From NCBI GenBank assembly GCA_013152945.1, contig JAADFL010000113.1, positions 1 through 39,838 on the forward strand: a stretch of 39,838 nt of DNA. Direction: 5' to 3'. Below the pieces are notes generated by a model. That model was not told the origin of the DNA, ran no database searches, and saw nothing but the letters and a program-made list of their open reading frames with translations. A program made the translations under genes and the position numbers. This DNA comes from Deltaproteobacteria bacterium. Lineage in GTDB: Bacteria > Myxococcota_A > JAADFL01. Below, piece by piece: positions 111-23,770 of the stretch; position 1 is the stretch's first letter; each line of letters opens with the position of its first letter.

Positions 111-187
<77 letters not shown>

Positions 188-415: not shown

Positions 416-2311
416 ATGTGCAAGGGCTATACAAACCGCGTACTCGAGGTAGACCTGAAAGAAAAAACCGTCCGGACCCGGGCACCGGGCCCTGAACTTT
501 TACGCATGTACTTGGGAGGTGGGGGACTCGGTTCTTACTTCCTATTGAGCAAGGGAGCTGCCAAAGAAGATCCCCTTGGACCGGGCAATGTCCTTACAAT
601 TGCTCCGGGAGTCACTACCGGTGCGAAAGTCAGCGGTGTAAGCAGGTTCTCTGTGACAGCGATCTCTCCGCTTACAGGATGCATCGGAGATGGGCAGGCA
701 GGCGGGGATTTCGGCCCATGGCTGAAGAGAGCGGGGTACGATGCAATCATCATTACCGGAAAGGCCGACTCGGCGGTTTACCTCTACGTGGATCAAAACA
801 GGGCACAGATTCGGGATGCCTCGCATCTATCGGGCCATCGTGTATCCGTTGTCCTGGACAAACTCGAGCATGACCTCGGAAAGCAGGATCTTGCAATTCT
901 GCAATGCGGGCCGGCCGGAGAAAAACTGGTCAGATTCGCCTGCCTGGTTTCGGGCAGAAATGACGTGATAGGCAGGACCGGCATGGGTGCGGTGTTCGGC
1001 TCGAAAAACTTGAGAGCCGTTGTCGTAAAGGCCGGTTCCGGCGTCTCCTTTGCAGACGGCCAAGGCCTATCGGCACTGAACCGGAAGGCTGCAAAGCGCC
1101 TTGCCGATACGGGCTTTCCCTCGGTCCTGAGAAAATACGGCACCCCCGGGGTAGTGGCGGCACAGGCAAAGGCCGGCAATTTGTGCACGAGAAACTTTAC
1201 AAGGGGTTCTATTGAGGGATTTGAAAAACTGGATGGTTCCAACTTCGAGGCTGAGATAGGTGCAGGGTCGCGCACGTGCTATGGTTGCGTGGTTGCCTGC
1301 AGGAAACGGGTCAAGTCAAGCGGCAAGTACAACATTTCCGATGCGCTCGGAGGTCCTGAATTCGAGACACTGGGCATGTTGGGATCCAACTTGGAAATAA
1401 CCGATCCAATGGCAGTGGCAAAGGCCAACGAACTGTGCAACGAGTACGGCATGGATACAATAACAATGGGTGGAATTGCCTCGTACCTTTGTGAAGCCAT
1501 GGACAGGGAGATTATCACGGCAAAGGATCTGGATGGCATCGGCCTCGCATTCGGAAATCCAGACGCACTCTTCGAATTGATACACAAAGTAGGTAAACGG
1601 CAGGGCGTGGGCGACATCCTTGCCGAGGGTTTCGAAGCAGCCATAACAAGGATGGGAGAAGACACCAGGGCATTCGCCGTACAGACCAGGAATCAGGCGT
1701 TTGCAGTACACATGCCGCAAGTCAAACCAAGCCTGTCAATAATATATGCAACCAACCCATTCGGACCGGATCACCAATCTTCCGAGCACGACTGGCTCCT
1801 GGCCGCAGGAGGCGACATTTGCCGGGGGCTCGGCATCACCGGAAGCGGAGATGCAAGCTCCGTGGGACCGGCCAAGGTAAGGATGACTGCTTTTTCCCAA
1901 ATCTATTACAGTCTTCTCGATACCCTAGGCCTCTGCCAATTCTGCTGGGGACCGGGCAGCCTTTTCAGTTACAGGGAACTGGAAGACCTGGTGAATTACT
2001 CGACCGGGTGGGACATAACCTTCCACGAACTATTGGCAGCCGGAGAACGCAGAATAAACCTGATGAGGTGGATCAATCATCTGCGAGGCTTTGGCGCCGG
2101 GCAAGACAAGTTGCCTGAAAGGGTGTTCGAAGCGCTGGGCGAAGGTCCCAGCAAAGGCAGGAAAGTCAACCGCAAGGAATTCGAAACAATGCTGCACCAA
2201 TATTACGCGATAATGGGATGGGAACAGTCCAGCGGCGTACCCGGCGAAGGCAAGATGCTCTCCCTGGGACTCGAGTGGACGCTTCCTGGAGGCACTGATG
2301 ACGGAAAATAA
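416..2311 (+). CDS. AOR-family tungsten aldehyde:ferredoxin oxidoreductase
   Basis: 631 residues, close to the usual AOR length of about 600-620. The family oxidises aldehydes to acids (or reduces acids) with a tungsten bis-pterin and one [4Fe-4S] cluster, passing electrons to ferredoxin. Visible landmarks are the N-terminal GYTNRVLEVDL, the glycine-rich pterin region (LGGGGLG and the APGVTTGAKVSG stretch), cluster cysteines C288-x2-C291-x3-C295, and LDTLGLC with the fourth cysteine near residue 507. The usual ELPAYDPRG-type segment is replaced by HMPQVKPS followed by NPFGPDHQSSEHD, so this is a divergent subgroup whose aldehyde cannot be predicted. The open frame extends upstream to a TTG at 383, but the ATG at 416 has GAGGG (404-408) at good spacing. 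It is the first gene of a five-gene operon and overlaps the next gene by 14 bp. No electron-carrier subunit is adjacent. Confidence 0.92.
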   Translation: MCKGYTNRVLEVDLKEKTVRTRAPGPELLRMYLGGGGLGSYFLLSKGAAKEDPLGPGNVLTIAPGVTTGAKVSGVSRFSVTAISPLTGCIGDGQAGGDFGPWLKRAGYDAIIITGKADSAVYLYVDQNRAQIRDASHLSGHRVSVVLDKLEHDLGKQDLAILQCGPAGEKLVRFACLVSGRNDVIGRTGMGAVFGSKNLRAVVVKAGSGVSFADGQGLSALNRKAAKRLADTGFPSVLRKYGTPGVVAAQAKAGNLCTRNFTRGSIEGFEKLDGSNFEAEIGAGSRTCYGCVVACRKRVKSSGKYNISDALGGPEFETLGMLGSNLEITDPMAVAKANELCNEYGMDTITMGGIASYLCEAMDREIITAKDLDGIGLAFGNPDALFELIHKVGKRQGVGDILAEGFEAAITRMGEDTRAFAVQTRNQAFAVHMPQVKPSLSIIYATNPFGPDHQSSEHDWLLAAGGDICRGLGITGSGDASSVGPAKVRMTAFSQIYYSLLDTLGLCQFCWGPGSLFSYRELEDLVNYSTGWDITFHELLAAGERRINLMRWINHLRGFGAGQDKLPERVFEALGEGPSKGRKVNRKEFETMLHQYYAIMGWEQSSGVPGEGKMLSLGLEWTLPGGTDDGK

Positions 2312-3647
2312 AATAGAAACGCTCATCGGTTCGGGCGAACTGGAGACCATCATACTCGCATTTCCAGACCAATATACAAGACTCATGGGTAAAAGGCTGA
2401 CCGCTTCCCATTACCTGGACCTGGGAAGCAAGGCTTCCATTCACGCCTGTGATTACCTGCTGGCGGCCGACCTCGATTTGAATCCCTTGCCCGGCTTCAA
2501 ACTTGCCAGTTGGGAAGAAGGATATGGCGACCATATCTTGAAACCCGACATGTCCACCTTCAGGATTCTTCCTTGGTACGAAAAAACTGCAATCCTGATT
2601 TGCGACCTGTTTCACGAGAATGAAGAGGCTGTTGCCGAAAGCCCGAGAAATATTTTGAAAAACCAACTGCAGGCGCTCACCGGCCTGGGACTAACTCCGA
2701 TAATGGCTTCCGAGCTGGAATTCTACCTCTTCAAGGGAGGATATGATCAGGCGGAGGAAAATGGTTTTTCCGAGCTCGAGCCGAGCACGCCGTTTCGTAT
2801 AGACTATTTTGTCGCAGGCACGAACCGTGACGAAGACGTACTTCGGGAAGTTCGATCCAAAATGTCTGAAGCAGGCATAGAAATCGAAGGCAGCAAGGGT
2901 GAATGGGAAAGGGGCCAGCACGAGGTCAATCTAAAAGCCTGCCCTGCCCTTGAAATGGCGGACAGGCACGTAATATTCAAGGACGGCGTAAAGTCCATAG
3001 CAGCAAAGCACGGTAAGGCAGCCACTTTCATGGCAAAAGTCGATGAAAACCTTGCGGGCTCGTCGTGCCATATTCACCTGAGCCTGGTCGATGAAAACAA
3101 CAACAACGCCTTTTGGGATCATAACTTGAACAAGCCCTCTGAAATTTTCGAACATTTCTTGGCCGGCTGCCTTGCAAACACCGGCAGTTTAAGTCTATTC
3201 CTGGCTCCAAATATCAATTCGTACAAGCGGTACAGGGCGGCAAGTTTTGCCCCGACATCCCTTGCATGGGGAACGGACAATAGGACCTGCGGCTTCAGGG
3301 TTGTGGGCCGCGAACATAACTTCAGGATCGAATGTCGTATCCCGGGAGCTGATGCAAACCCTTACCTTGCGTTTTCAGCCTTGCTCGCATCCGGCATGGA
3401 TGGCCTGGCCCAAAAACTCGCTCTTCCAGGCGAACAGATAGGTAACGCATACGAAAATAAAAATATCCGGAGCGTCAGCACGAGTCTTTCAAGAGCAATC
3501 GCTTGTTTCAAGGAGCAAGACTTTGCAATGAAAGCCTTTGGCGCCGGGGTTGCGGAACACTATCTCAAGCTTGCAACCCTGGAACTCGAAGAAAGCGAAA
3601 GGGTGGTTTCCAACTGGGAAAAAAGAAGATATTTCGAACGGGCCTAG
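2298..3647 (+). CDS. Glutamine synthetase-like gamma-glutamyl ligase
   Basis: 449 residues with the full glutamine synthetase catalytic core. It has ELEFYLF at 139-145 (metal-binding glutamates), GQHEVNL at 206-212, SSCHIHLSL with H258 and H260, APTSLAWG, and a C-terminal RIPGADANPY loop. It therefore should activate glutamate with ATP to gamma-glutamyl phosphate and transfer it to ammonia or an amine. The length and the absence of an evident adenylylation-loop tyrosine fit the GS-like ligases of amine metabolism (PuuA, IpuC, AtdA1/TdnQ types) better than housekeeping GlnA; that assignment is inference. It begins inside the last codons of the AOR gene, with GGAGG at 2288-2292, so the two are probably translationally coupled. 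The GATase-like gene at the operon end is the natural partner for removing the glutamyl group. Confidence 0.88.
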   Translation: MTENKIETLIGSGELETIILAFPDQYTRLMGKRLTASHYLDLGSKASIHACDYLLAADLDLNPLPGFKLASWEEGYGDHILKPDMSTFRILPWYEKTAILICDLFHENEEAVAESPRNILKNQLQALTGLGLTPIMASELEFYLFKGGYDQAEENGFSELEPSTPFRIDYFVAGTNRDEDVLREVRSKMSEAGIEIEGSKGEWERGQHEVNLKACPALEMADRHVIFKDGVKSIAAKHGKAATFMAKVDENLAGSSCHIHLSLVDENNNNAFWDHNLNKPSEIFEHFLAGCLANTGSLSLFLAPNINSYKRYRAASFAPTSLAWGTDNRTCGFRVVGREHNFRIECRIPGADANPYLAFSALLASGMDGLAQKLALPGEQIGNAYENKNIRSVSTSLSRAIACFKEQDFAMKAFGAGVAEHYLKLATLELEESERVVSNWEKRRYFERA

Positions 3648-3689
3648 AGTGCAAATTTTCGACAAAGAGGAAAAAGAGGAGGCAAAATT

Positions 3690-4829
3690 ATGATCACCAG
3701 GTTTCACTTTCCGACAGAGATCGTATTCGGTGAAGGCGCCATACAGGAATCGGCAAAAGAATGTTCGGTGATCGGTGTTTCAAGGCCCCTGCTGGTAACC
3801 GATCAAGGAATAGTCGGCGCAGGACTCGCAGACAAGGTAATCAAGGTGTTCAAGTCCGCCGGCCTTTTAACAAAGATCTTTGACCAAGTATCCCCGAATC
3901 CAACCGGCGCACAGGTCGACGAGGGCGCCCGGGTCTACAAGGAAGAAGGGGCGGACTGCATAGTGGCCCTGGGCGGAGGAAGTCCAATGGACGCGGCAAA
4001 GGGCATCAGACTTAGAATAGAGCACCTCGATCCCCTGGAGACTTATGACGATCTTAAAGGCGGGGATGCCAAGATAACCGGTTCCCTGCCTCCCATGATT
4101 GCCATACCGACAACCGCGGGCACCGGTTCCGAGGTCTCCAGGTCAGCGGTCATCACTGTCGAGGCGGTCGCGAGAAAGGTGGTGATCTTTTCACCAAGGT
4201 TAATGCCGGACGTCGCAATATGTGATCCCGAGTTGACATACGGCCTTCCGCCGCGATTGACCGCAGAGACCGGAATGGATGCCATGTCTCACTCGATCGA
4301 GGCCTTTATGGCAAAGGGATATAATCCTATGGCGGACTCCATAGCATTGAAAGGCATCTTCATGATTTCTCAAAATCTGGTAACGGCGGTACAAGACGGA
4401 GGAAACGTGGAAGCAAGGCGTGAACTGATGATGGCATCCACGATGGGAGCGACGGCATTCCAAAAGGGCCTTGGCGCGGTTCATTCGTTGGCGCATCCCT
4501 TGTCCACTGTATGTAATGTAAGCCACGGCCTCGCCAATTCAATTCTTCTACCGCACATATTGCGTTTCAATGCCGAGGCTGTGCCCAAAAAGGCGGAAGA
4601 ACTGGCGAATGCCCTTGGTCTCGAAAACTCCGGCGGCAATGACGCTGCAGAGTTTATCGAGGCGCTCGCTGGAAAATGCGGACTTCCGGGCAAGCTGTCA
4701 CAGGCCGGGGTGGATGAAAAATCCATCCTGGAACTTGCTGCAAAAGCCATGGAGGACGGCTGTCACTTGTCAAACCCAAGACCTTGTAGCGAAGATACGA
4801 TGAAATCCTTGCTGGAAGCAGCCATGTAG
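3690..4829 (+). CDS. Iron-containing (group III) alcohol dehydrogenase
   Basis: 379 residues, typical for the Fe-ADH family that interconverts alcohols and aldehydes with NAD(P)H. The nucleotide-binding GGGSPMD lies at 95-101 and PTTAGTGSE at about 140-148. The metal ligands are D197, H201, H265 and H279, the same arrangement as in lactaldehyde reductase FucO. All catalytic ligands are present. A strong GAGGAGG ribosome site (3676-3682) sits 7 nt before the ATG. In the operon it follows the GS-like ligase by 42 nt and precedes the HAD gene by 19 nt. It could feed an aldehyde to the AOR enzyme or reduce the aldehyde the AOR makes; the direction cannot be read from sequence. Substrate specificity is unknown. 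Confidence 0.93.
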   Translation: MITRFHFPTEIVFGEGAIQESAKECSVIGVSRPLLVTDQGIVGAGLADKVIKVFKSAGLLTKIFDQVSPNPTGAQVDEGARVYKEEGADCIVALGGGSPMDAAKGIRLRIEHLDPLETYDDLKGGDAKITGSLPPMIAIPTTAGTGSEVSRSAVITVEAVARKVVIFSPRLMPDVAICDPELTYGLPPRLTAETGMDAMSHSIEAFMAKGYNPMADSIALKGIFMISQNLVTAVQDGGNVEARRELMMASTMGATAFQKGLGAVHSLAHPLSTVCNVSHGLANSILLPHILRFNAEAVPKKAEELANALGLENSGGNDAAEFIEALAGKCGLPGKLSQAGVDEKSILELAAKAMEDGCHLSNPRPCSEDTMKSLLEAAM

Positions 4830-4848
4830 AACAATACGGGAGTAAAAA

Positions 4849-5619
4849 ATGATACAACCTGGAATAAGAGCAATCAGTTTCGATCTCTGGGACACCTTGA
4901 TCATAGACGATTCAGATGAGGTCAAACGCAAGGAAATGCAATTACCCACGAAAAAAGAGGCTCGCCGCATTCTTGTCCATGAAGCCTTGAACAAAAACCA
5001 GGTTCCTGTTTCCATTGAAACAGTAAACGCCGCTTACGATGCAATCGATACTGCATTCGACAAGGTGTGGAAGCAACTCCATGTAACCTGGAGCGTACGT
5101 GAGAGACTCAACCTGCTGCTCACTGCCCTGCACTCAGGCCTGCCGGACAATGAAATGCTCGCCTTGATAAGAAGACATGAAGAAATGGAACTGGATGTGC
5201 AACCGGATTTCGTCGAGGAAGCCGGGGAGGTTTTGTCTGTATTGGCCGGCTCGTACAAGCTGGCCGTAATATCGGACACCGTCTTCAGTCCGGGCAGGGT
5301 CCTGCGGAAATTACTCCAGCAAGCAGGCATCTTTAAATATTTTCATACATTGGTTTTTTCAGATGAGGTCTTGCGTTCGAAGCCTTCATCCGCTGTATTT
5401 CTGAAGGCTTGTGACTCCTTGTCGGTGGCGCCCCAGGAATTGGTTCACATAGGCGACAGGGAAGACAAGGATGTCGCCGGTCCGCATGCGGTGGGCGCAA
5501 GGGCGATATTGTGCACTGCCGTCAAGGACAGGACAAAAGGAGGGGCCAGCGCTGCTGAAAAGATTTGCAATAATCTTCGTGAGTTGCCCGGTTTAATAGA
5601 TGAGCTGAACGCCGGGTGA
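4849..5619 (+). CDS. HAD-superfamily hydrolase-like protein
   Basis: 256 residues with a HAD fold and helical cap. Motif I is FDLWDTL with nucleophile D12; motif II is the SDT of VISDT; motif III is the lysine of RSKPSSAVF; motif IV is GDREDKD. In typical phosphatases the residue two after the nucleophile is Asp (DxD), but here it is Trp with Asp one further on (D-L-W-D-T). That raises the question whether the phosphatase acid/base is present or displaced. The gene has GGGAG at 4838-4842 before ATG 4849 and lies 19 nt after the alcohol dehydrogenase, so it is co-transcribed. Possible roles are hydrolysis of a phosphorylated intermediate or dehalogenase-like chemistry; I cannot choose between them. 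Confidence 0.82.
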   Translation: MIQPGIRAISFDLWDTLIIDDSDEVKRKEMQLPTKKEARRILVHEALNKNQVPVSIETVNAAYDAIDTAFDKVWKQLHVTWSVRERLNLLLTALHSGLPDNEMLALIRRHEEMELDVQPDFVEEAGEVLSVLAGSYKLAVISDTVFSPGRVLRKLLQQAGIFKYFHTLVFSDEVLRSKPSSAVFLKACDSLSVAPQELVHIGDREDKDVAGPHAVGARAILCTAVKDRTKGGASAAEKICNNLRELPGLIDELNAG

Positions 5620-5710
5620 ACATCTAAAGTTCATGCTTGGATTTTTTACAAAGATAACGATGATGTAAATAACATATACCAACCATATGGAAATGTCAGA
5701 GGAGGAATGC

Positions 5711-6559
5711 ATGTCATCGGCTCAAAGATTCCTTATCGTTGACGGGTACCCGAAGCAAAGCAGGGATGAATTGCAGGAAGCGGGGATGAAACTGGCCTGG
5801 GAATTGTACAGGGATCTCCTCCTCGCCCATCTGCCGGATTCTGAATTCGATGTGCTCCTTCCCAGCGACCCGGGCACAGGGCTTCCCGAAGGCGTTGGCC
5901 TTGAACAATACAACGGCGTCATTTGGACAGGTTGCAACCTGACAATCTACCACCCGGACGATCAAAGGGTTTTAAGACAGATCGAGCTTGCAAGACAAAG
6001 TTATGAGAAAGGAGTGCCTGCCTTTGGTAGTTGCTGGGGTATACAGATCGCAGTAACGGCCGCAGGCGGAGAAGTAAGGGCCAACCCGAAGGGACGGGAA
6101 ATGGGCGTTGCCAGAAAGATCCACCTGACCGAACAGGGATCGGCTCATCCCATGTTCCTCGACAAGCCAAGAGTATTCGACGGATTCATCAGTCATGTTG
6201 ACGAGGTTACCAGCCTGCCCAGAGGTGCGCGTTGGTTGGCTACAAACGAGTTCACGCGTATTCAGGCGGTTGAAGTGGTCCACAAGAAAGGCGTTTTTTG
6301 GGCGACACAGTACCATCCTGAATACAACCTGCACGAAATGGCCCGCCTGTTGGTGGCAAGGACGCCCAAGCTCCTCAAAGAAGGATTCTTCGAATCCGGT
6401 CAAGATGCCCAAAACTACGTATCCGACATGGAAACCCTTGCACGGACACCGGGTCGCAAGGACCTTCGGTGGAGGCTCGGACTGGATAATCACATTCTTG
6501 ATGACCGGATAAGGAGAACTGAATTTCGCAACTGGATCGAACAAGTCGTAAAACCCTGA
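5711..6559 (+). CDS. Class-I glutamine amidotransferase-like gamma-glutamyl hydrolase
   Basis: 282 residues of a GMP-synthase-type GATase1 domain with no synthetase domain attached. The nucleophile elbow is GSCWG with C108, and the triad partners are in YHPEY (H202, E204). Stand-alone enzymes of this kind include AtdA2/TdnT-type proteins, encoded beside a GS-like ligase, that hydrolyse gamma-glutamyl amides. That role is proposed here because a GS-like ligase is in the same operon. An unspecific amidotransferase role is the alternative. An upstream in-frame ATG at 5687 exists, but AGAGGAGG (5698-5705) marks ATG 5711. The 91-nt AT-rich gap after the HAD gene is the longest in the operon and could hold an internal promoter, though I see no convincing one. 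The gene is convergent with mobA. The 172-nt gap to mobA holds only a weak 5-bp hairpin with a short T-run near 6694-6714. Confidence 0.85.
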   Translation: MSSAQRFLIVDGYPKQSRDELQEAGMKLAWELYRDLLLAHLPDSEFDVLLPSDPGTGLPEGVGLEQYNGVIWTGCNLTIYHPDDQRVLRQIELARQSYEKGVPAFGSCWGIQIAVTAAGGEVRANPKGREMGVARKIHLTEQGSAHPMFLDKPRVFDGFISHVDEVTSLPRGARWLATNEFTRIQAVEVVHKKGVFWATQYHPEYNLHEMARLLVARTPKLLKEGFFESGQDAQNYVSDMETLARTPGRKDLRWRLGLDNHILDDRIRRTEFRNWIEQVVKP

Positions 6560-6731: not shown

Positions 6732-7349
6732 TTACGGCTGGAAACGGCTTTTGTTCCCTCTGATTCTTTTCTCAGCCAACTCGAGATCTTCCCGGGTATT
6801 CACGTTGAAGAACGAGTCCATGAAGGGATCGACTGCTCTCACATCCTGTTCCACAAGCTCTACCACGGTTATCTCCCTGTAGAAATGCACTATCTTGAAA
6901 TCTTCACCCGAACCAAGCTGTTTCTCTATGGCAGGCAGACAGGCCTTGGAATAAGCTGCACAAAGGGGCTCAAACCTGCCTGCATGCCGAGGCACCACTG
7001 CGTCACCTCGTTGTAATCCCCTGATCAACAACTCAATCAACCCATGCCTTATCAATGGCATGTCCACAGCGGTTACGATGCATGCGGTTTCGTTACACGA
7101 TTTTACTGCAGCATGAATACCGGCCAAGGCTCCACCAGGCAATATATCGCGTACAAGTCTTGCCCTGTTTCCTCCAAATTTCTCATAAAGCCCGGGCTGC
7201 CTTGCTACTATCAATAAATCCGAGCAATATGGAGCAAGGACCTCCATGGCCCTTTCGATCAAAACCTTGCCGGCAAGATGTACCAGGGCCTTATCTTGGC
7301 CCATCCTTCGACTTTGCCCTCCGGTAAGAACGGCTCCGCTGACAGCCAT
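6732..7349 (-). CDS. mobA: Molybdenum cofactor guanylyltransferase MobA
   Basis: 205 residues. MobA transfers GMP from GTP to molybdopterin, giving the guanine-dinucleotide cofactor of DMSO-reductase-family enzymes. The N-terminal nucleotide-binding signature GAVLTGGQSRRMGQDKAL is intact. The metal-binding DMPL is present, as is PGGALAGIHAA (the GPLAG-like segment) and a C-terminal FFNVNTREDLELA resembling the family NINTPEDL motif. It lies 4 nt downstream of mobB and must be co-transcribed with it. AOR enzymes of archaea use a bis-pterin without the dinucleotide, so this gene need not serve the neighbouring AOR. It implies other molybdo- or tungsto-enzymes elsewhere in the genome. Confidence 0.93.
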   Translation of the reverse strand: MAVSGAVLTGGQSRRMGQDKALVHLAGKVLIERAMEVLAPYCSDLLIVARQPGLYEKFGGNRARLVRDILPGGALAGIHAAVKSCNETACIVTAVDMPLIRHGLIELLIRGLQRGDAVVPRHAGRFEPLCAAYSKACLPAIEKQLGSGEDFKIVHFYREITVVELVEQDVRAVDPFMDSFFNVNTREDLELAEKRIRGNKSRFQP

Positions 7350-7353
7350 ATCT

Positions 7354-7860
7354 TCAAACCTTTATATTAAAATATGAAACTATGAAATCAGCCAGCTTTT
7401 CCGAATCATTCAAGGCAAAGCAGGGAATACCCGGCACCGGGCGGTCCAGGTCCGAGGCAACGGCGACAAGGGCATCCGACACGCTGCAAATCGCTTCCGT
7501 GCTTCGCTCGGCTCTTATGACTTCTATCTTGGGCTTATCAGATGTCTTGAAGCCCTCGGCAAGCACCAAGTCTACGTTTTTCCCGATCAATTGGACAAGA
7601 TCATCAAGACCGGGCTCCTGTTGCTCCATGCGTATCATCGCCACCATGCCGGGTGAGGCAATGGCCACAGCAACGGCTCCGGCCTTGCGGTGCCGCCAGG
7701 TATCCTTGCCTTCCACGTCCATCTCGAAACCATGACGATCATGTTTCAATGTTCCTACCTTGAGGTTCCGCGCCGAGAGGACATTTATCAACTTTTCCAT
7801 CAAGGTGGTCTTCCCGGAATTCTTCTTTCCACAAATACAGATAACAGGCGTGCCGGACAT
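7354..7860 (-). CDS. mobB: Molybdopterin-guanine dinucleotide biosynthesis protein MobB
   Basis: 168 residues from the ATG at 7860, which has GGAGGT (complement of 7869-7874) 8 nt upstream; the longer open frame to 7998 lacks homologous character. MobB is a GTP-binding partner of MobA. It shows the P-loop GKKNSGKTT at 11-19 and the family motif around KHDRHGFEMDVEGKDTWRHR, which matches the usual KHxxHxFxxDxxGKDSxRH pattern. The length is normal for stand-alone MobB. It is the first gene of a mobB-mobA pair and is divergent from the giant lipoprotein gene, so the 234-nt gap must contain promoters in both directions. None is clear by eye. Confidence 0.92.
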   Translation of the reverse strand: MSGTPVICICGKKNSGKTTLMEKLINVLSARNLKVGTLKHDRHGFEMDVEGKDTWRHRKAGAVAVAIASPGMVAMIRMEQQEPGLDDLVQLIGKNVDLVLAEGFKTSDKPKIEVIRAERSTEAICSVSDALVAVASDLDRPVPGIPCFALNDSEKLADFIVSYFNIKV

Positions 7861-8026
7861 TCTTTGCCACCTCCGTTCCCGGTAAATTAACCGACCGCCT
7901 GGTGGAAGACAAGTACATGAATCTTTTCCTTTGCTGACGCGCCCGGACTTGCACACATATCCATGCAGGGATAAGCTAATACATGAAAGTGATGGCAACA
8001 GGAATGAAAAAGCCTTTAAATATATT

Positions 8027-8045: not shown

Positions 8046-8094
8046 TTCAAGGGAGCGATTGGCATTAATGCACCTTATGGCAGGGAGAATGATT

Positions 8095-11000
8095 ATGAGG
8101 ATATTTATTTTTTCAAGAATAAAACGCTCTATTTTTGATATTTTTTTTACTTCCCATGCATTACGGAATAAAAACATTCTTTCGAATCTGGTTGCTGTGT
8201 CACTTACAGCCGCTCTCCTATGGTCCACGGGATGTACGAGTATCGGATCGGCATCCCTGGAAATCAATTTTCCGGATGAGCAGGCCCGTCAAACTACAAA
8301 ACGACTTGACCTGTACGTATTGAAACCAACCTTCGCGGATTGCAGCGATCTTTTGGCCGGATCCGTATCCCCGGAGACCGGCGCCTCCGATGTCGTTTTC
8401 AAGGCATCGATTCAATACCCGGGCGGAGGCAGCTTGCCCAATATACCTACCGGAAAACAAACATTTTTCTTACAAGCATTCGGGGCGAACACATTGCCTC
8501 TACTCAGAGGCTGCAATGTTGCAAACGTGAGCCAGGAAGGAACGGTGAACATTGTAATCAATCTCAAGTGGGTCTGCATACCTAAACAGGAAGTATGCGG
8601 CAATAACAAGGATGATGATTGCGACGGCCGGGTGGACGAAGACTGTCCAAGCTGTACATCGGACCGACAATGCATCGATGACAACCCTTGCACCATAGAC
8701 TTGTGTCTTGACGGTGATTGCCATCACAACAACTTTCCAAAAGGAACCTTTTGTTCCGATCAGGATCCCTGCACGGTTGACGATAAATGCATTGACGGCA
8801 GGTGTGCCGGAACACCCAAGGATTGTTCCGCCTTTGACGGGACATGTAAGAAAGGTATATGTGAACCGTCTACAGGGGAATGTAAAGCCTTGCCAATCGA
8901 TGACAACAGCAAATGTGACGACGGACTTTGGTGTACAATAGATGATGTATGCATCAAGGGTGAATGCACCGGTACCCCGAGAGATTGCTCTGATGATGAC
9001 GATCTTTGCACAAAAGATACATGCGTCGAAGGCACGGGAGATCAGGGACATTGCGAGCACGCCCTGGTGCCGCGGCCTGGCAGGGAGGGCCCTCCTGGAA
9101 GTGATTCCTGCTCGAACGGTAAAGATGATGACTGTGACGGAAAGATAGACACAGAAGATGCAAGCTGCATCGGATGTACTGCGGACGGTGATTGCGATGA
9201 TCAAAATCCCTGCACCGAAGACAAGTGTGAAAACTTTGTGTGCAAGAATGATATCAAGCACGATGGAACAAAGTGCGAAGACGGTCTTTTCTGCACAATC
9301 GGAGACAAATGTGAATCAGGTGTGTGCAAAGGAGAGCCGAGAACATGCGAAGAGGTCGAGGACAACTGTCATGACGGTATATGCGTAGAAGATCAAGACA
9401 AGTGCATACCCAAAGAAAAACCCGATAATACGGATTGTGAAGACGGTCTATATTGCACTGTGGGCGACAAGTGCCAGGCGGGTGAATGCCGTGGCAGAAC
9501 ACGGGCCTGCAATGACAACGATCCTTGCACCGTGGATTCATGCGATGAAGATTCCAGATCGTGTGTAAATGACCTTGAGCCGCAACCGGGAAAGGAGGGG
9601 CCGCCGGGATCTACATCATGTATGAACAAGTTGGATGATGATTGTGACAGGCGAATCGACCTCGATGATCCCGACTGCATCGAATGTACTTCAGACCAGG
9701 ATTGCGATGATCGGAATCCATGCACAACCGATAAATGTACCTTGGGAAAATGTACGAGCACCAATGTAAAGAATAACACGGAATGCGACGACGGCTTGTA
9801 TTGCACGGTTGATGACAAATGTGAATCAGGTAAGTGCAAGGGCTCTGCCAAGGATTGTTCCGCCCTGGACGATCCTTGCCACGAGGGCATATGCAACGAG
9901 GACAAGAAAACTTGTGAAGCAATGTACAAGGGCGATGGAGTGGAATGCAATGACGGTCTGTATTGCACGGTAAATGAAAAATGCGATGGCGGCTCTTGCA
10001 AGGGATCCCCGAGGGACTGTGAGGATAATGATCCATGCACCGAGGGTTCGTGCAATGAAGACCTGAAAAAATGCGTGCAAACCGTGGTGCCCAATCCCGG
10101 AGCCGAAGGGCCGCCGGGGCACGGGAGCTGCAGCGACCAAAAAGACAACGACTGTGACGAACTGATAGACCTGGATGATCCGGACTGCGTGGAGTGTGTA
10201 CTTGCCGCAGACTGTAACGATTCAAATACATGCACTGACGATACATGTGACCACGGGGTTTGTAGGCACACTCCCGTTAATGACGACACGCCTTGTAACG
10301 ATTCACATTTTTGCAATGGGGATGATTATTGCCAGGCAGGCACATGCTCGAAGCACGACGGGAGTCCTTGTTCGGATGGCTTCGATTGCACACAGGACCT
10401 CTGTGACGAAGATAAGGACATGTGCTCCAATCTTGTTACGGCGGGAAAGTGCCTAATCAACGGCACATGCTTCAATGACGATGAACAAAACCCGGCGAAC
10501 CAATGTGAAAAATGCGATCACTCGACAAACCCCAAGGCATGGACATACAGGGGTGACGACACGCCTTGTGACGACTCGTTGTACTGTGATGGAAACGATT
10601 ACTGCCAGGCAGGCACATGCTCGAAGCACGACGGGAATCCTTGTACGGATGGCTTCGATTGCACGGACGACATCTGTGATGATGTCAATGATTCCTGCTC
10701 AAACCCGGTTACGGCGGGAAAGTGCCTAATCAGCGGCACATGCTTCAATGACGATGAACAAAACCCGGCGAACCAATGTGAAAAATGCGATCACTCGACA
10801 AATCCCAAGGCATGGACCTGGGCGCCGAAGCCCTGGAAAATGGATATCTGCGGAAACGGCATCGATGAAGACTGTGATGCCGTGCCGGACGGTTGTTGCA
10901 TGGGAGATGGAACTTTTCAGAATCGAACTACTACTCCTATAGGCGCGGATCCCTGGTTCATTATTGCCGGCGACTTCAATGAAGACGGAATAGACGACTT

Positions 11001-13179
11001 GGCCACTGCAAACAAGAATAGTTCGTCCGTTTCCGTGCTCATCACGGGCGGAACTGCCGGCAAGGGAGACGGGACCTTCACAAGGACTCCTGCAGGCGAC
11101 TACGGCACCGGTGGAACCACCTATGGCATTATTACTGCTGACATTGACGGTGACGGGCATCTCGATCTCGTTACAGCAAACAACTCAAGTGCCAGCTCGG
11201 TTTCGATCTTCTGGGGCAAGGGTGATGGAACATTTGTCAACAGGCTGGACATTCCGATCAACGGAAACGCCACTTTTCCCACCACAGGCGATTTCAATGA
11301 AGACGGCAACATGGACATCGCCGTCTCTGCATACACTGACAATGTAGCGGTCTTGCTTGGAAACGGCGCTTCCAGAAGCTTTTCCACTCCTGTGTACTAT
11401 TCCATCAGTGGTCAGGCCTCGAACGCCAGGTCAATTGCCGATGGGGATTTCAATGGCGACGACATATTGGACCTGGCAGTAGCAGCCTTCGGCTCCGGCA
11501 ATGTAACAATCCTGTTCGGCAATGGATCCGACGGCATAGGCAACGGCACATTTTCAAATCCTACCGCAGCCAGCACGTTTACTGCGTGTAGCGGACCGAC
11601 CAACATCATCACAGCGGACTTCAACCAGGATGCTATAAAGGATATAGCCGTCTCTTGTATGAACGCAAACAAGATAGGCATCCTCATTGGAAAAGGAACC
11701 GACGGGCGCGGTGATGGCACTTTTGAAGATGCCGTTCTCTATGATTTCGGTTCTTTTCCCGTCTCGGTTCATGCAGCGGATTTGAACTCGGACAATATAG
11801 ATGATTTGGTGGTTGCCGAATGGGGGACAGGGGCAATCGGAATCAGGCTTGGAAACAGCATAAACGGCCATGGCGATGGAACCTTTGGATCCGGGAACTC
11901 GTTTGCCGTAGGATCCAATCCTGCTGCGGCAACTGTACTGGATGCAACGGGCGACCAGATACCGGACATTGCATCCGCCGACAACGTACCGGACTCAATC
12001 TCACTTTTGGAGGGCCACGGAAGCGGTGCAACTCCTGGCTTCGGTTTCGTAGAATCATTTACATCCAATCTCGCCGGAAAACCGGTTTGTTTACAAGCCG
12101 GTGATCTTGACAGCGACAACATTCCGGACCTGGCCTTTTCACAGGAAGACGTGCATAAGGCGGCAACACACAAGGGAGGAGGTACTAACGGCAAGGGAGA
12201 CGGAACATTCCTGGCCCGGTGGAGTGGTGACACAGGTGACACCACGCTGCCGGCCTGGATTGAGATCACAGACCTCGACAAGGACAGTGTATCAGACCTG
12301 CTCATCGCACTGCCGGGGAGTGGATCGGTCGGCATATTCAAAGGTCAATCAAGTGCAGGTTACCCTGACGGTTTGTTCGATCCTGTTTCAAGCATTTCCT
12401 CGGGAACAGGCTCATTGCCCAAAATGGCGATTGCAGCGGATGTCAATGAAGACGGAATCCCGGATATACTCGCCGCAGACGAGACAGGCTACCTGGTAGT
12501 ACTCATAGGCGGGGGAACCGGTGGAGTCCCTGACTTCACATTCGGATCGCCAGCCGCCTATGCAGCCGGCAACGGCGTGGTGTCCCTCGCGGCGGGTGAC
12601 TTGAACGGCGACGCCGTACTGGACGTGGCCTTGGCTGCAAGGGACGATGATGCAGTCAGTATCATGCTCGGTAATGGTTCAGGAGGCCTGGGTGACGGCA
12701 CATTTTACCCTAATCCGACTGCAGCCGAGGTGCCGGTCGGAAAGGCCCCGGTTGCCGTCCAACTTGCCGATTTGAACAACGACGGAATCTTGGACCTCGT
12801 CACTGCAAACAGGGACGACGACACCCTGAGCATAAGGCTGGGCAACGGCTCATCCGGACGTGGAGACGGCACCTTTACCGGCCCTGCAACGCCGAACCCG
12901 GTTGCAGGCAAATCACCCACGGCAGTGGCTGTATTCGACCTCGATGTGGACGGCATCCCGGACCTAGCTTGCGCAGACAGGGATGACGGCACGGTTTCCG
13001 TGTTCAAAGGCTTGGGAGATGGCGCATTTGCAGCCAGGGAGGTAATAACGGTCGGAGGTTCTCCGAACGGCCTGGTAGCCGGCAACTTTGACTGGGATCA
13101 CAGGCCGGATATAGCTGTTATTGATTCATCCCAAGACCTGCTTTTAATTCTCAGGGGCACAGGGACATGCAATCCATAG
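8095..13179 (+). CDS. Giant lipoprotein: Cys/Asp-rich MopE-like region plus 14 FG-GAP repeats
   Basis: 1694 residues. ATG 8095 is chosen because AGGGAG (8082-8087) lies 7 nt upstream; TTG 8059 and ATG 8089 are worse placed. A long basic leader ends in a lipobox WSTGC (Cys47), so export and lipid anchoring are expected. From about residue 167 to 935 the protein is Cys/Asp-rich. It has modules like CDDGLYCTVDDKCESGxCKG and five MopE-like CxNxxDDDCDxxxD motifs, acidic motifs thought to bind metal (calcium or copper have been suggested for relatives). From about 935 to the end I count 14 DxNxDGxxDLxxAN repeats of the FG-GAP/VCBS type, enough for two seven-bladed beta-propellers. This suggests a surface adhesion or binding protein; the ligand is unknown. 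A 273-bp unit is duplicated almost identically inside the Cys-rich part. The gene is monocistronic, with pyrG 173 nt downstream. Confidence 0.9.
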   Translation: MRIFIFSRIKRSIFDIFFTSHALRNKNILSNLVAVSLTAALLWSTGCTSIGSASLEINFPDEQARQTTKRLDLYVLKPTFADCSDLLAGSVSPETGASDVVFKASIQYPGGGSLPNIPTGKQTFFLQAFGANTLPLLRGCNVANVSQEGTVNIVINLKWVCIPKQEVCGNNKDDDCDGRVDEDCPSCTSDRQCIDDNPCTIDLCLDGDCHHNNFPKGTFCSDQDPCTVDDKCIDGRCAGTPKDCSAFDGTCKKGICEPSTGECKALPIDDNSKCDDGLWCTIDDVCIKGECTGTPRDCSDDDDLCTKDTCVEGTGDQGHCEHALVPRPGREGPPGSDSCSNGKDDDCDGKIDTEDASCIGCTADGDCDDQNPCTEDKCENFVCKNDIKHDGTKCEDGLFCTIGDKCESGVCKGEPRTCEEVEDNCHDGICVEDQDKCIPKEKPDNTDCEDGLYCTVGDKCQAGECRGRTRACNDNDPCTVDSCDEDSRSCVNDLEPQPGKEGPPGSTSCMNKLDDDCDRRIDLDDPDCIECTSDQDCDDRNPCTTDKCTLGKCTSTNVKNNTECDDGLYCTVDDKCESGKCKGSAKDCSALDDPCHEGICNEDKKTCEAMYKGDGVECNDGLYCTVNEKCDGGSCKGSPRDCEDNDPCTEGSCNEDLKKCVQTVVPNPGAEGPPGHGSCSDQKDNDCDELIDLDDPDCVECVLAADCNDSNTCTDDTCDHGVCRHTPVNDDTPCNDSHFCNGDDYCQAGTCSKHDGSPCSDGFDCTQDLCDEDKDMCSNLVTAGKCLINGTCFNDDEQNPANQCEKCDHSTNPKAWTYRGDDTPCDDSLYCDGNDYCQAGTCSKHDGNPCTDGFDCTDDICDDVNDSCSNPVTAGKCLISGTCFNDDEQNPANQCEKCDHSTNPKAWTWAPKPWKMDICGNGIDEDCDAVPDGCCMGDGTFQNRTTTPIGADPWFIIAGDFNEDGIDDLATANKNSSSVSVLITGGTAGKGDGTFTRTPAGDYGTGGTTYGIITADIDGDGHLDLVTANNSSASSVSIFWGKGDGTFVNRLDIPINGNATFPTTGDFNEDGNMDIAVSAYTDNVAVLLGNGASRSFSTPVYYSISGQASNARSIADGDFNGDDILDLAVAAFGSGNVTILFGNGSDGIGNGTFSNPTAASTFTACSGPTNIITADFNQDAIKDIAVSCMNANKIGILIGKGTDGRGDGTFEDAVLYDFGSFPVSVHAADLNSDNIDDLVVAEWGTGAIGIRLGNSINGHGDGTFGSGNSFAVGSNPAAATVLDATGDQIPDIASADNVPDSISLLEGHGSGATPGFGFVESFTSNLAGKPVCLQAGDLDSDNIPDLAFSQEDVHKAATHKGGGTNGKGDGTFLARWSGDTGDTTLPAWIEITDLDKDSVSDLLIALPGSGSVGIFKGQSSAGYPDGLFDPVSSISSGTGSLPKMAIAADVNEDGIPDILAADETGYLVVLIGGGTGGVPDFTFGSPAAYAAGNGVVSLAAGDLNGDAVLDVALAARDDDAVSIMLGNGSGGLGDGTFYPNPTAAEVPVGKAPVAVQLADLNNDGILDLVTANRDDDTLSIRLGNGSSGRGDGTFTGPATPNPVAGKSPTAVAVFDLDVDGIPDLACADRDDGTVSVFKGLGDGAFAAREVITVGGSPNGLVAGNFDWDHRPDIAVIDSSQDLLLILRGTGTCNP
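10281..10826 (+). repeat. 273-bp tandem duplication inside the giant lipoprotein gene
   Basis: Copies run 10281-10553 and 10554-10826, an in-frame unit of 91 codons. The last 108 bp or so (from 10435 and 10708) differ at only about two positions, while the first part has diverged more. In-frame length and near identity suggest a recent duplication or gene conversion of one Cys-rich module. Confidence 0.85.
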
Positions 13180-22957: not shown

Positions 22958-23770
22958 TCAACCAGGGTGGGAAGAACCGGTTGTCCTGCTCATCGGCCTG
23001 ACATCATCCCTGCCGTTCTGAAATGCGACTATCTCCGCCATTATGGACAAAGCGATTTCTGCAGGAGTGCGCCCACCCAGGTCCAAGCCTATAGGAGACC
23101 TGATGCGTGCAATCAGTTCTTCATCTGTTCCCCGCTCCCTGAGCTTATCCAGGGCTGTCTTCACCTTTTTCCTGCTTCCCACCATTCCAAGGTACGCAGG
23201 GTTTTTCCCGATACAGGCCTCGAGTACTGTCTGGTCATAGTCATGACCCCTGGTGACTATCACGACCAGGTCTTTTTCACCCGGCTGCAATATTTCTATG
23301 GCTTCATCGAAAGGCTTGACCAGAAGCCGGACCGGCTCTTTGAACCTCTCCCGGGTGGCCCATTCCATGCGATCGTCCACGACCGTTATCCTGAAGCCCA
23401 GCCTTGAAGCAAAGGAAGCTATTTCAAGTCCAAGATGCCCAGCTCCAAATATCAGGAGCCTTGCCTGCACGTTCACGGGTTCCAGGAAAACCATTGCGGA
23501 ACCGCCGCAACCCATGTCAATGCCGGAAAGAACAAGGTTGACGAGCTTTGGGTTGCCTTGTTCCTCCATGAGCTTTCCGGCTTCCCGTATGGTGGATGCT
23601 TCCAAGGTACCCCCGCCGATGGTTCCTACAATGCCGCCATCCGCATTTACCAGCATCTTTGCTCCTGCTTCCCTTGGGGCGGATCCTTTTACCTCGACAA
23701 CCGTGGCCAAAACAGCCTGCTTCCCGTGCTCGAAACAATCCAGTACAGCCTTCAATACATCCAAACTCAT
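22958..23770 (-). CDS. XdhC/CoxI-family protein
   Basis: 270 residues with the two usual parts. The N-terminal XdhC/CoxI segment includes VVEVKGSAPREAGAKM and GTIGGGTLE. The C-terminal Rossmann domain has FGAGHLG and the family signature SPIGLDLGGRTPAEIA. XdhC proteins bind molybdenum cofactor and help sulfurate or insert it into xanthine-dehydrogenase-type hydroxylases. No hydroxylase or dehydrogenase subunit lies in this window, so it is an orphan copy here. GGAGGG is 7 nt before the ATG. mobAB sit 15 kb away. It could serve a selenium-dependent or xanthine dehydrogenase encoded elsewhere. Confidence 0.9.
   Translation of the reverse strand: MSLDVLKAVLDCFEHGKQAVLATVVEVKGSAPREAGAKMLVNADGGIVGTIGGGTLEASTIREAGKLMEEQGNPKLVNLVLSGIDMGCGGSAMVFLEPVNVQARLLIFGAGHLGLEIASFASRLGFRITVVDDRMEWATRERFKEPVRLLVKPFDEAIEILQPGEKDLVVIVTRGHDYDQTVLEACIGKNPAYLGMVGSRKKVKTALDKLRERGTDEELIARIRSPIGLDLGGRTPAEIALSIMAEIVAFQNGRDDVRPMSRTTGSSHPG

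Follow-up and report, generated by a model that had tools for sequence, protein, structure and literature searches.

A Myxococcota_A operon proposed to join gamma-glutamylation of a small amino alcohol to an aldehyde:ferredoxin oxidoreductase

Gamma-glutamylation routes and the gene set of the window

Ethanolamine is a building block of membrane lipids and a main product of membrane-lipid decay, and the known routes for its use are the Eut pathway and gamma-glutamylation with NAD enzymes. In Phaeobacter, the latter involves a gamma-glutamylase, a gamma-glutamylethanolamide dehydrogenase, a gamma-glutamyl-aldehyde dehydrogenase and a gamma-glutamylglycine amidohydrolase, and the corresponding genes are related to genes of C. 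salexigens (PMC10132767). An ethanolamine pathway with GlnA4 has been described in Streptomyces (PMC6529630). In the aniline system, a glutamine synthetase (GS)-like protein and a GATase-like protein form a pair that works with a Rieske dioxygenase (PMC11335346). We also found cassettes on plasmids of Paracoccus denitrificans (NFGAH-TRAP-GS-AldDH-FeADH), Salipiger (NFGAH-GS-AldDH-FeADH-glyA) and Thermomicrobium (GS-SDR-ethanolamine permease).

The stretch of DNA analysed here (hereafter the window, 39,838 nt) is contig JAADFL010000113.1 of a Deltaproteobacteria bacterium assembly (GCA_013152945.1, Myxococcota_A; 4.84 Mb, 94% complete). Near its left end, open reading frames and Pfam matches bear out the five genes of a preliminary description, in the same place and order and all on the plus strand. 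The first (416..2311) encodes an aldehyde:ferredoxin oxidoreductase (AOR) of the bis-pterin tungsten/molybdenum family (Pfam AFOR_N, 214 bits; AFOR_C, 344 bits). It is followed by genes for a GS-like protein, a putative gamma-glutamyl amine ligase of the ethanolamine gamma-glutamylase clade (2298..3647; Pfam Gln-synt_C, 319 bits), for an iron-containing alcohol dehydrogenase (3690..4829; Pfam Fe-ADH), proposed to be a gamma-glutamyl-amino-alcohol dehydrogenase, for a TIGR02253-like protein of the HAD superfamily (4849..5619), and for a class I GATase-fold hydrolase (Cys-His-Glu; 5711..6559; Pfam PF00117 and alignment), proposed to be a gamma-glutamyl-glycine hydrolase. The AOR and ligase frames overlap by exactly 14 bp (2298-2311), and gaps of 42, 19 and 67 bp follow the ligase, Fe-ADH and HAD genes, in agreement with the compact spacing first described. 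The longest frame of the GATase begins at 5687; the ATG at 5711, directly 3' of GAGGAGG, appears the more likely start because homologues begin at that position, and it widens the last gap to 91 bp. Catalytic residues had been said to be intact in four of the five proteins, and they are indeed kept in the AOR, ligase, ADH and GATase, with the HAD protein deviating.

A tRNA-Ala(cgc) gene outside the pathway (111..186, minus strand) forms the left border, and the convergent mobA/mobB genes (6732-7998, minus strand) form the right one, so that the operon appears to be complete with five genes and to contain no transporter. A tblastn search found no match to a TRAP or Eat ethanolamine transporter in the window, Pfam identified no P450 or Rieske oxygenase among the five operon genes, and the window holds no NAD aldehyde dehydrogenase, the slot of which is occupied by the AOR. 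Together with an xdhC-like gene (22958-23770), mobA and mobB place molybdenum/tungsten cofactor genes near the AOR operon. Positions 8059-13179 encode a predicted 1706-aa protein with Cys-rich repeats and FG-GAP repeats, probably a surface lipoprotein.

The Eto systems of Chromohalobacter, Paracoccus and Phaeobacter have in common with the window the ligase clade, an Fe-ADH, aldehyde oxidation, gamma-glutamyl hydrolysis and the absence of an oxygenase. They differ in using an NAD aldehyde dehydrogenase where the window has the AOR and a member of the N-formylglutamate-amidohydrolase family where it has the class I GATase; the window also has an extra HAD gene and neither a TRAP nor an Eat transporter. 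The Streptomyces GlnA4 route is likewise entered through gamma-glutamylethanolamide, with alcohol and aldehyde oxidation and then hydrolysis proposed, but has a short-chain dehydrogenase and an NAD aldehyde dehydrogenase and no AOR. Glutamate masking, aldehyde oxidation and a GATase-fold (C26) hydrolase recur in the Puu pathway of E. coli, in which, however, PuuA falls outside the ligase clade, PuuB is an oxidase, and there is no ADH or AOR. The isopropylamine (Ipu) and aniline (Atd) pathways resemble the window in their GS-like ligase and GATase-type hydrolase, whereas P450 or Rieske oxygenases attack the carbon part and the ligases lie outside the window clade. The preliminary description had taken Atd and Ipu as the closest precedent; with the ligase in a clade with those of ethanolamine cassettes, that place belongs instead to ethanolamine gamma-glutamylation (Eto/GlnA4). 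It had also seen the novelty in oxygen independence, which an Eto-type pathway already achieves because it uses no oxygenase. What is new is the AOR in the slot of the NAD aldehyde dehydrogenase, the different hydrolase and the added HAD protein, and a literature search of openly licensed papers found no report that combines an AOR with gamma-glutamylation.

The GS-like ligase

In an alignment, the GS-like ligase kept the metal, ATP and glutamate ligands. Acidic residues of the ammonia site are replaced, D50 by P and E327 by F, and both are essential for glutamine synthesis (PMC6529630). At the position of Y179, also part of the ammonium site, the window subclade has Ile, and 71/102 of the clade have Glu. 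The clade in question came from a tree of 113 rows (Streptomyces GlnA4 not among them), 102 of which group with a support of 100 and include, besides the window ligase, the Paracoccus and Salipiger Eto ligases, ligases beside ethanolamine permeases, and the nearest solved structures, 11zs and 5dm3, the latter of which we take to be a Chromohalobacter salexigens protein. Outside it fell IpuC, a P450-linked GS of Agrobacterium, PuuA and GlnA. Identity to the window ligase is 44% for Paracoccus, 42% for 5dm3, 35% for IpuC and 32% for PuuA. The window genome encodes a second GS, which retains E327 and clusters with the GlnA of E. coli.

The tree thus answers the comparison with GlnA, PuuA and IpuC suggested earlier, with no grouping of the ligase with housekeeping GlnA. 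Because D50 and E327 are lost and the protein shares a clade with the ligases of ethanolamine cassettes, we read its sequence as that of an amine ligase, not a glutamine synthetase. Tree and residues together ruled out plain glutamine synthetase, PuuA and IpuC as identities. For the wider ligase clade, ethanolamine is the best-supported substrate.

Recurrence of the genes and the AOR subfamily

We looked for the five genes in a phylum sample of 377 genomes that includes the window genome. The ligase was present at E<=1e-90 in 61 of these genomes, again counting the window genome, the GATase in 23 (22 besides the window's) and the HAD protein in 15. The window-type AOR was absent at E<=1e-120 from all 376 other genomes, and the five-gene set is not conserved in them; the nearest ligases in the sample stand mostly beside PuuD-like C26 hydrolases and SDR enzymes, not beside an AOR. 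Scanning genome_contigs with the ligase as the only protein gave no match, and none of the best 80 ligase loci taken from a pattern scan of genome_contigs contained an AOR. The AOR was located by searching the genomes behind the nearest ligase loci, and two genomes picked via their ligases, G377 (Myxococcota MAG CSMAG_234) and G378 (Spirochaetaceae MAG CSMAG_2990), carry it at E<1e-230.

G377 has orthologues of all five genes, with ADH, HAD and GATase on one contig in the order of the window (58, 49 and 55% identity) and the ligase (54%) and AOR on other contigs. G378 has a ligase 46% identical to that of the window. Its Fe-ADH and AOR genes are adjacent in this order (L255), and a different short contig (L178) carries the GATase gene immediately before that of the ligase. 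At a Bryobacterales locus (L177), one strand reads HAD-GATase-ADH-AldDH and the opposite strand encodes the ligase. Verrucomicrobial and other relatives show an ADH-AldDH-ligase arrangement. The idea of conserved co-occurrence therefore stands in part: the contiguous set of five is found in the window only (n = 1) and the AOR link recurs in two further genomes, but orthologous pairs and triplets recur in MAGs of other lineages, and for this reason the grouping exceeds chance.

The Spirochaetaceae MAG also contains a nearly identical 46-nt leader before both GATase-GS (L178:1588-1633) and ADH-AOR (L255:422-467), which forms a hairpin with compensatory changes (GCAAAC/GTTTGC vs GCCAAC/GTTGGC). 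No Rfam family matched it, leaving a known riboswitch unsupported; a regulatory RNA or operator common to both gene pairs is conceivable, as is an element used generally in that genome. At an Anaerolineae locus (L162:4063-8622), a carbon-nitrogen hydrolase gene and an amidohydrolase-like gene come after ADH-GS, so a further type of hydrolase may occupy the same slot there.

The window AOR contains the AFOR domains, the CxxCxxxC...C cluster ligands and the pterin motifs of its family. Aligned to the Pyrococcus AOR (1aor; 306 bits), it shows CYGCVVAC, GLC, E317 and H453, the last two equivalent to 1aor E313 and H448. It thus shares family and active-site motifs with the Pyrococcus enzyme but is distant from it, in a separate subfamily with a support of 100; tungsten content and ferredoxin as acceptor are presumed from the family. 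The window genome has six AOR-type matches. The AORs of the window, G377 (56% identity) and G378 (55%) group together with 100/100 support, separate from every other AOR in these genomes, and so far this subfamily has been seen only in genomes that carry a window-type ligase. We take the AOR to be a genuine part of the pathway. Six relatives with an AldDH beside the ligase lack the window-type AOR, and in the three AOR bearers the loci inspected contain no AldDH (Fisher p 0.012, from few and non-independent genomes with short MAG contigs), numbers that suggest, and do not prove, that the AOR displaced the NAD aldehyde dehydrogenase.

The Asp and His motifs are intact in the window ADH. It is nearest to the ADH of the G377 cluster (58%), and a tree placed it among ligase-linked Fe-ADHs, outside the alphaproteobacterial Eto ADHs (39% to Paracoccus). 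The GATase keeps C116/H210/E212 (full-ORF numbering). Its counterparts in G377, G378, a further genome (G178) and L177 join it in one clade (96/90), from which phylum relatives that have different partners are separate; it is 37% identical to a GATase encoded next to a GS and a P450 on a plasmid of Agrobacterium. We dropped the GATase as a stand-alone marker of the pathway because its partners in the 22 other phylum genomes are different genes, not GS. In L072 (2914-4592) and L076 (7610-9300), for instance, the GATase homologue lies directly behind a gene that was assigned by eye to a TauD-like (2-oxoglutarate-dependent) dioxygenase.

The HAD protein keeps D12 of motif I (DLWDT), whereas Trp replaces the second Asp, here as in its homologues, so that the canonical DxD of HAD phosphatases is not present. 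HAD and GATase genes are adjacent in four genomes (window, G377, G178, L177). In about 10 other phylum genomes (L146-L154, L156), the gene for a HAD homologue immediately precedes one of the GCS2 family (glutamate-cysteine-ligase-like; two of these confirmed by Pfam), and the HAD protein therefore seems to be tied to gamma-glutamyl chemistry in general.

A proposed pathway and its alternatives

We hypothesize that a small amino alcohol, in all likelihood ethanolamine, is broken down by gamma-glutamylation through the products of this operon, with the AOR in place of an NAD aldehyde dehydrogenase, and on balance we favor this reading. We are fairly confident of a gamma-glutamyl pathway with the AOR as its aldehyde step, and consider ethanolamine a probable substrate. 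The set of enzyme classes is supported by sequence and co-occurrence; the substrate, direction, electron carrier and each reaction are what we infer. In this pathway, the GS-like ligase would join ethanolamine and glutamate at the expense of ATP to give gamma-glutamyl-ethanolamide, and the Fe-ADH would oxidize the free hydroxyl with NAD to a gamma-glutamyl-aminoaldehyde, which could not self-condense because its amine is masked by glutamate. The AOR would then convert the aldehyde to gamma-glutamylglycine and reduce ferredoxin, the GATase would release glutamate and glycine, and glycine would pass to the glycine cleavage system, which this genome possesses. The HAD protein is linked to the pathway but is assigned none of these steps. 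The scheme proposed earlier, of glutamate masking followed by oxidation of the carbon end by Fe-ADH and AOR and GATase-type release, is supported, and an amino alcohol is upheld as the best guess for the substrate.

The window genome contains the glycine decarboxylase GcvP, and EutB was not found in it, a combination that suits an anaerobe unable to use the Eut route and able to use glycine. A search restricted to the heme-copper-oxidase family found one protein in this genome (781 aa), which reads by its sequence as a quinol NO reductase, with no NCBIfam model confirming it. The host is uncultivated and probably an anaerobe.

Counting against our reading, all five genes are contiguous in the window only and those of G377 and G378 are split over MAG contigs; moreover, the window ADH lies outside the alphaproteobacterial Eto ADH group, the operon has no ethanolamine transporter, and the scheme gives the HAD protein no step. 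The same pathway logic could serve another substrate, such as 1-amino-2-propanol, 3-aminopropanol, alaninol or a polyamine-derived alcohol. The amine pocket of the window subclade has Ile where most of the clade has Glu, which may mean a different amine, the SBP_bac_8-type solute-binding protein that adjoins GATase-GS in the Spirochaetaceae locus L178 makes other amines possible, and the placement of the ADH points the same way. We nevertheless think a different substrate rather unlikely: the larger ligase clade is repeatedly tied to ethanolamine permeases and TRAP systems, and the pairing of an Fe-ADH with an aldehyde-oxidizing step suits primary alcohols, ethanolamine among them. Doubtful, too, is a phosphorylated starting compound such as phosphoethanolamine, imported by an organophosphate antiporter and dephosphorylated by the HAD protein before glutamylation. 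HAD genes in the window operon, G377 and L177, and GlpT/PgtP-family MFS transporters that adjoin the ligase at L177 and L164, are consistent with such a start. However, motif I of this HAD family has no second Asp, the homologues in the phylum stand beside GCS2 ligases rather than phospholipid genes, the window operon has no transporter, and the neighbor in L164 (7254-8117) has no Pfam match, so that no HAD is demonstrated there.

AORs can reduce acids using low-potential ferredoxin, and the AOR and ADH could in principle turn a gamma-glutamyl amino acid into a gamma-glutamyl amino alcohol, for biosynthesis or as an electron sink. This reductive direction is improbable, as the homologous cassettes carry NAD aldehyde dehydrogenases in the AOR slot and adjoin uptake systems, and they are catabolic where studied (PMC10132767). 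That the genes are a chance assembly, with the ligase a spare glutamine synthetase, is hardly credible and already largely refuted. The single contiguous occurrence, unmatched in the 376 other genomes, would fit it, but the 14-bp overlap, the recurrence of pairs and triplets of these genes in other lineages, orthologue clades that track each other and the loss of the ammonia residues from the ligase all argue against it.

It is an evenly balanced possibility that several bacterial lineages share a distinct ferredoxin-reducing, tungsten-dependent branch of gamma-glutamyl ethanolamine catabolism, its dedicated AOR subfamily having replaced the NAD aldehyde dehydrogenase so that the low-potential electrons of the aldehyde step are conserved. 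With an AOR as its last oxidative enzyme, such a pathway would supply anaerobes with reduced ferredoxin in place of NADH, an AOR subfamily that has no assigned function would acquire one, and the range of tungsten enzymes would extend to the catabolism of amines, with a specific substrate that can be tested.
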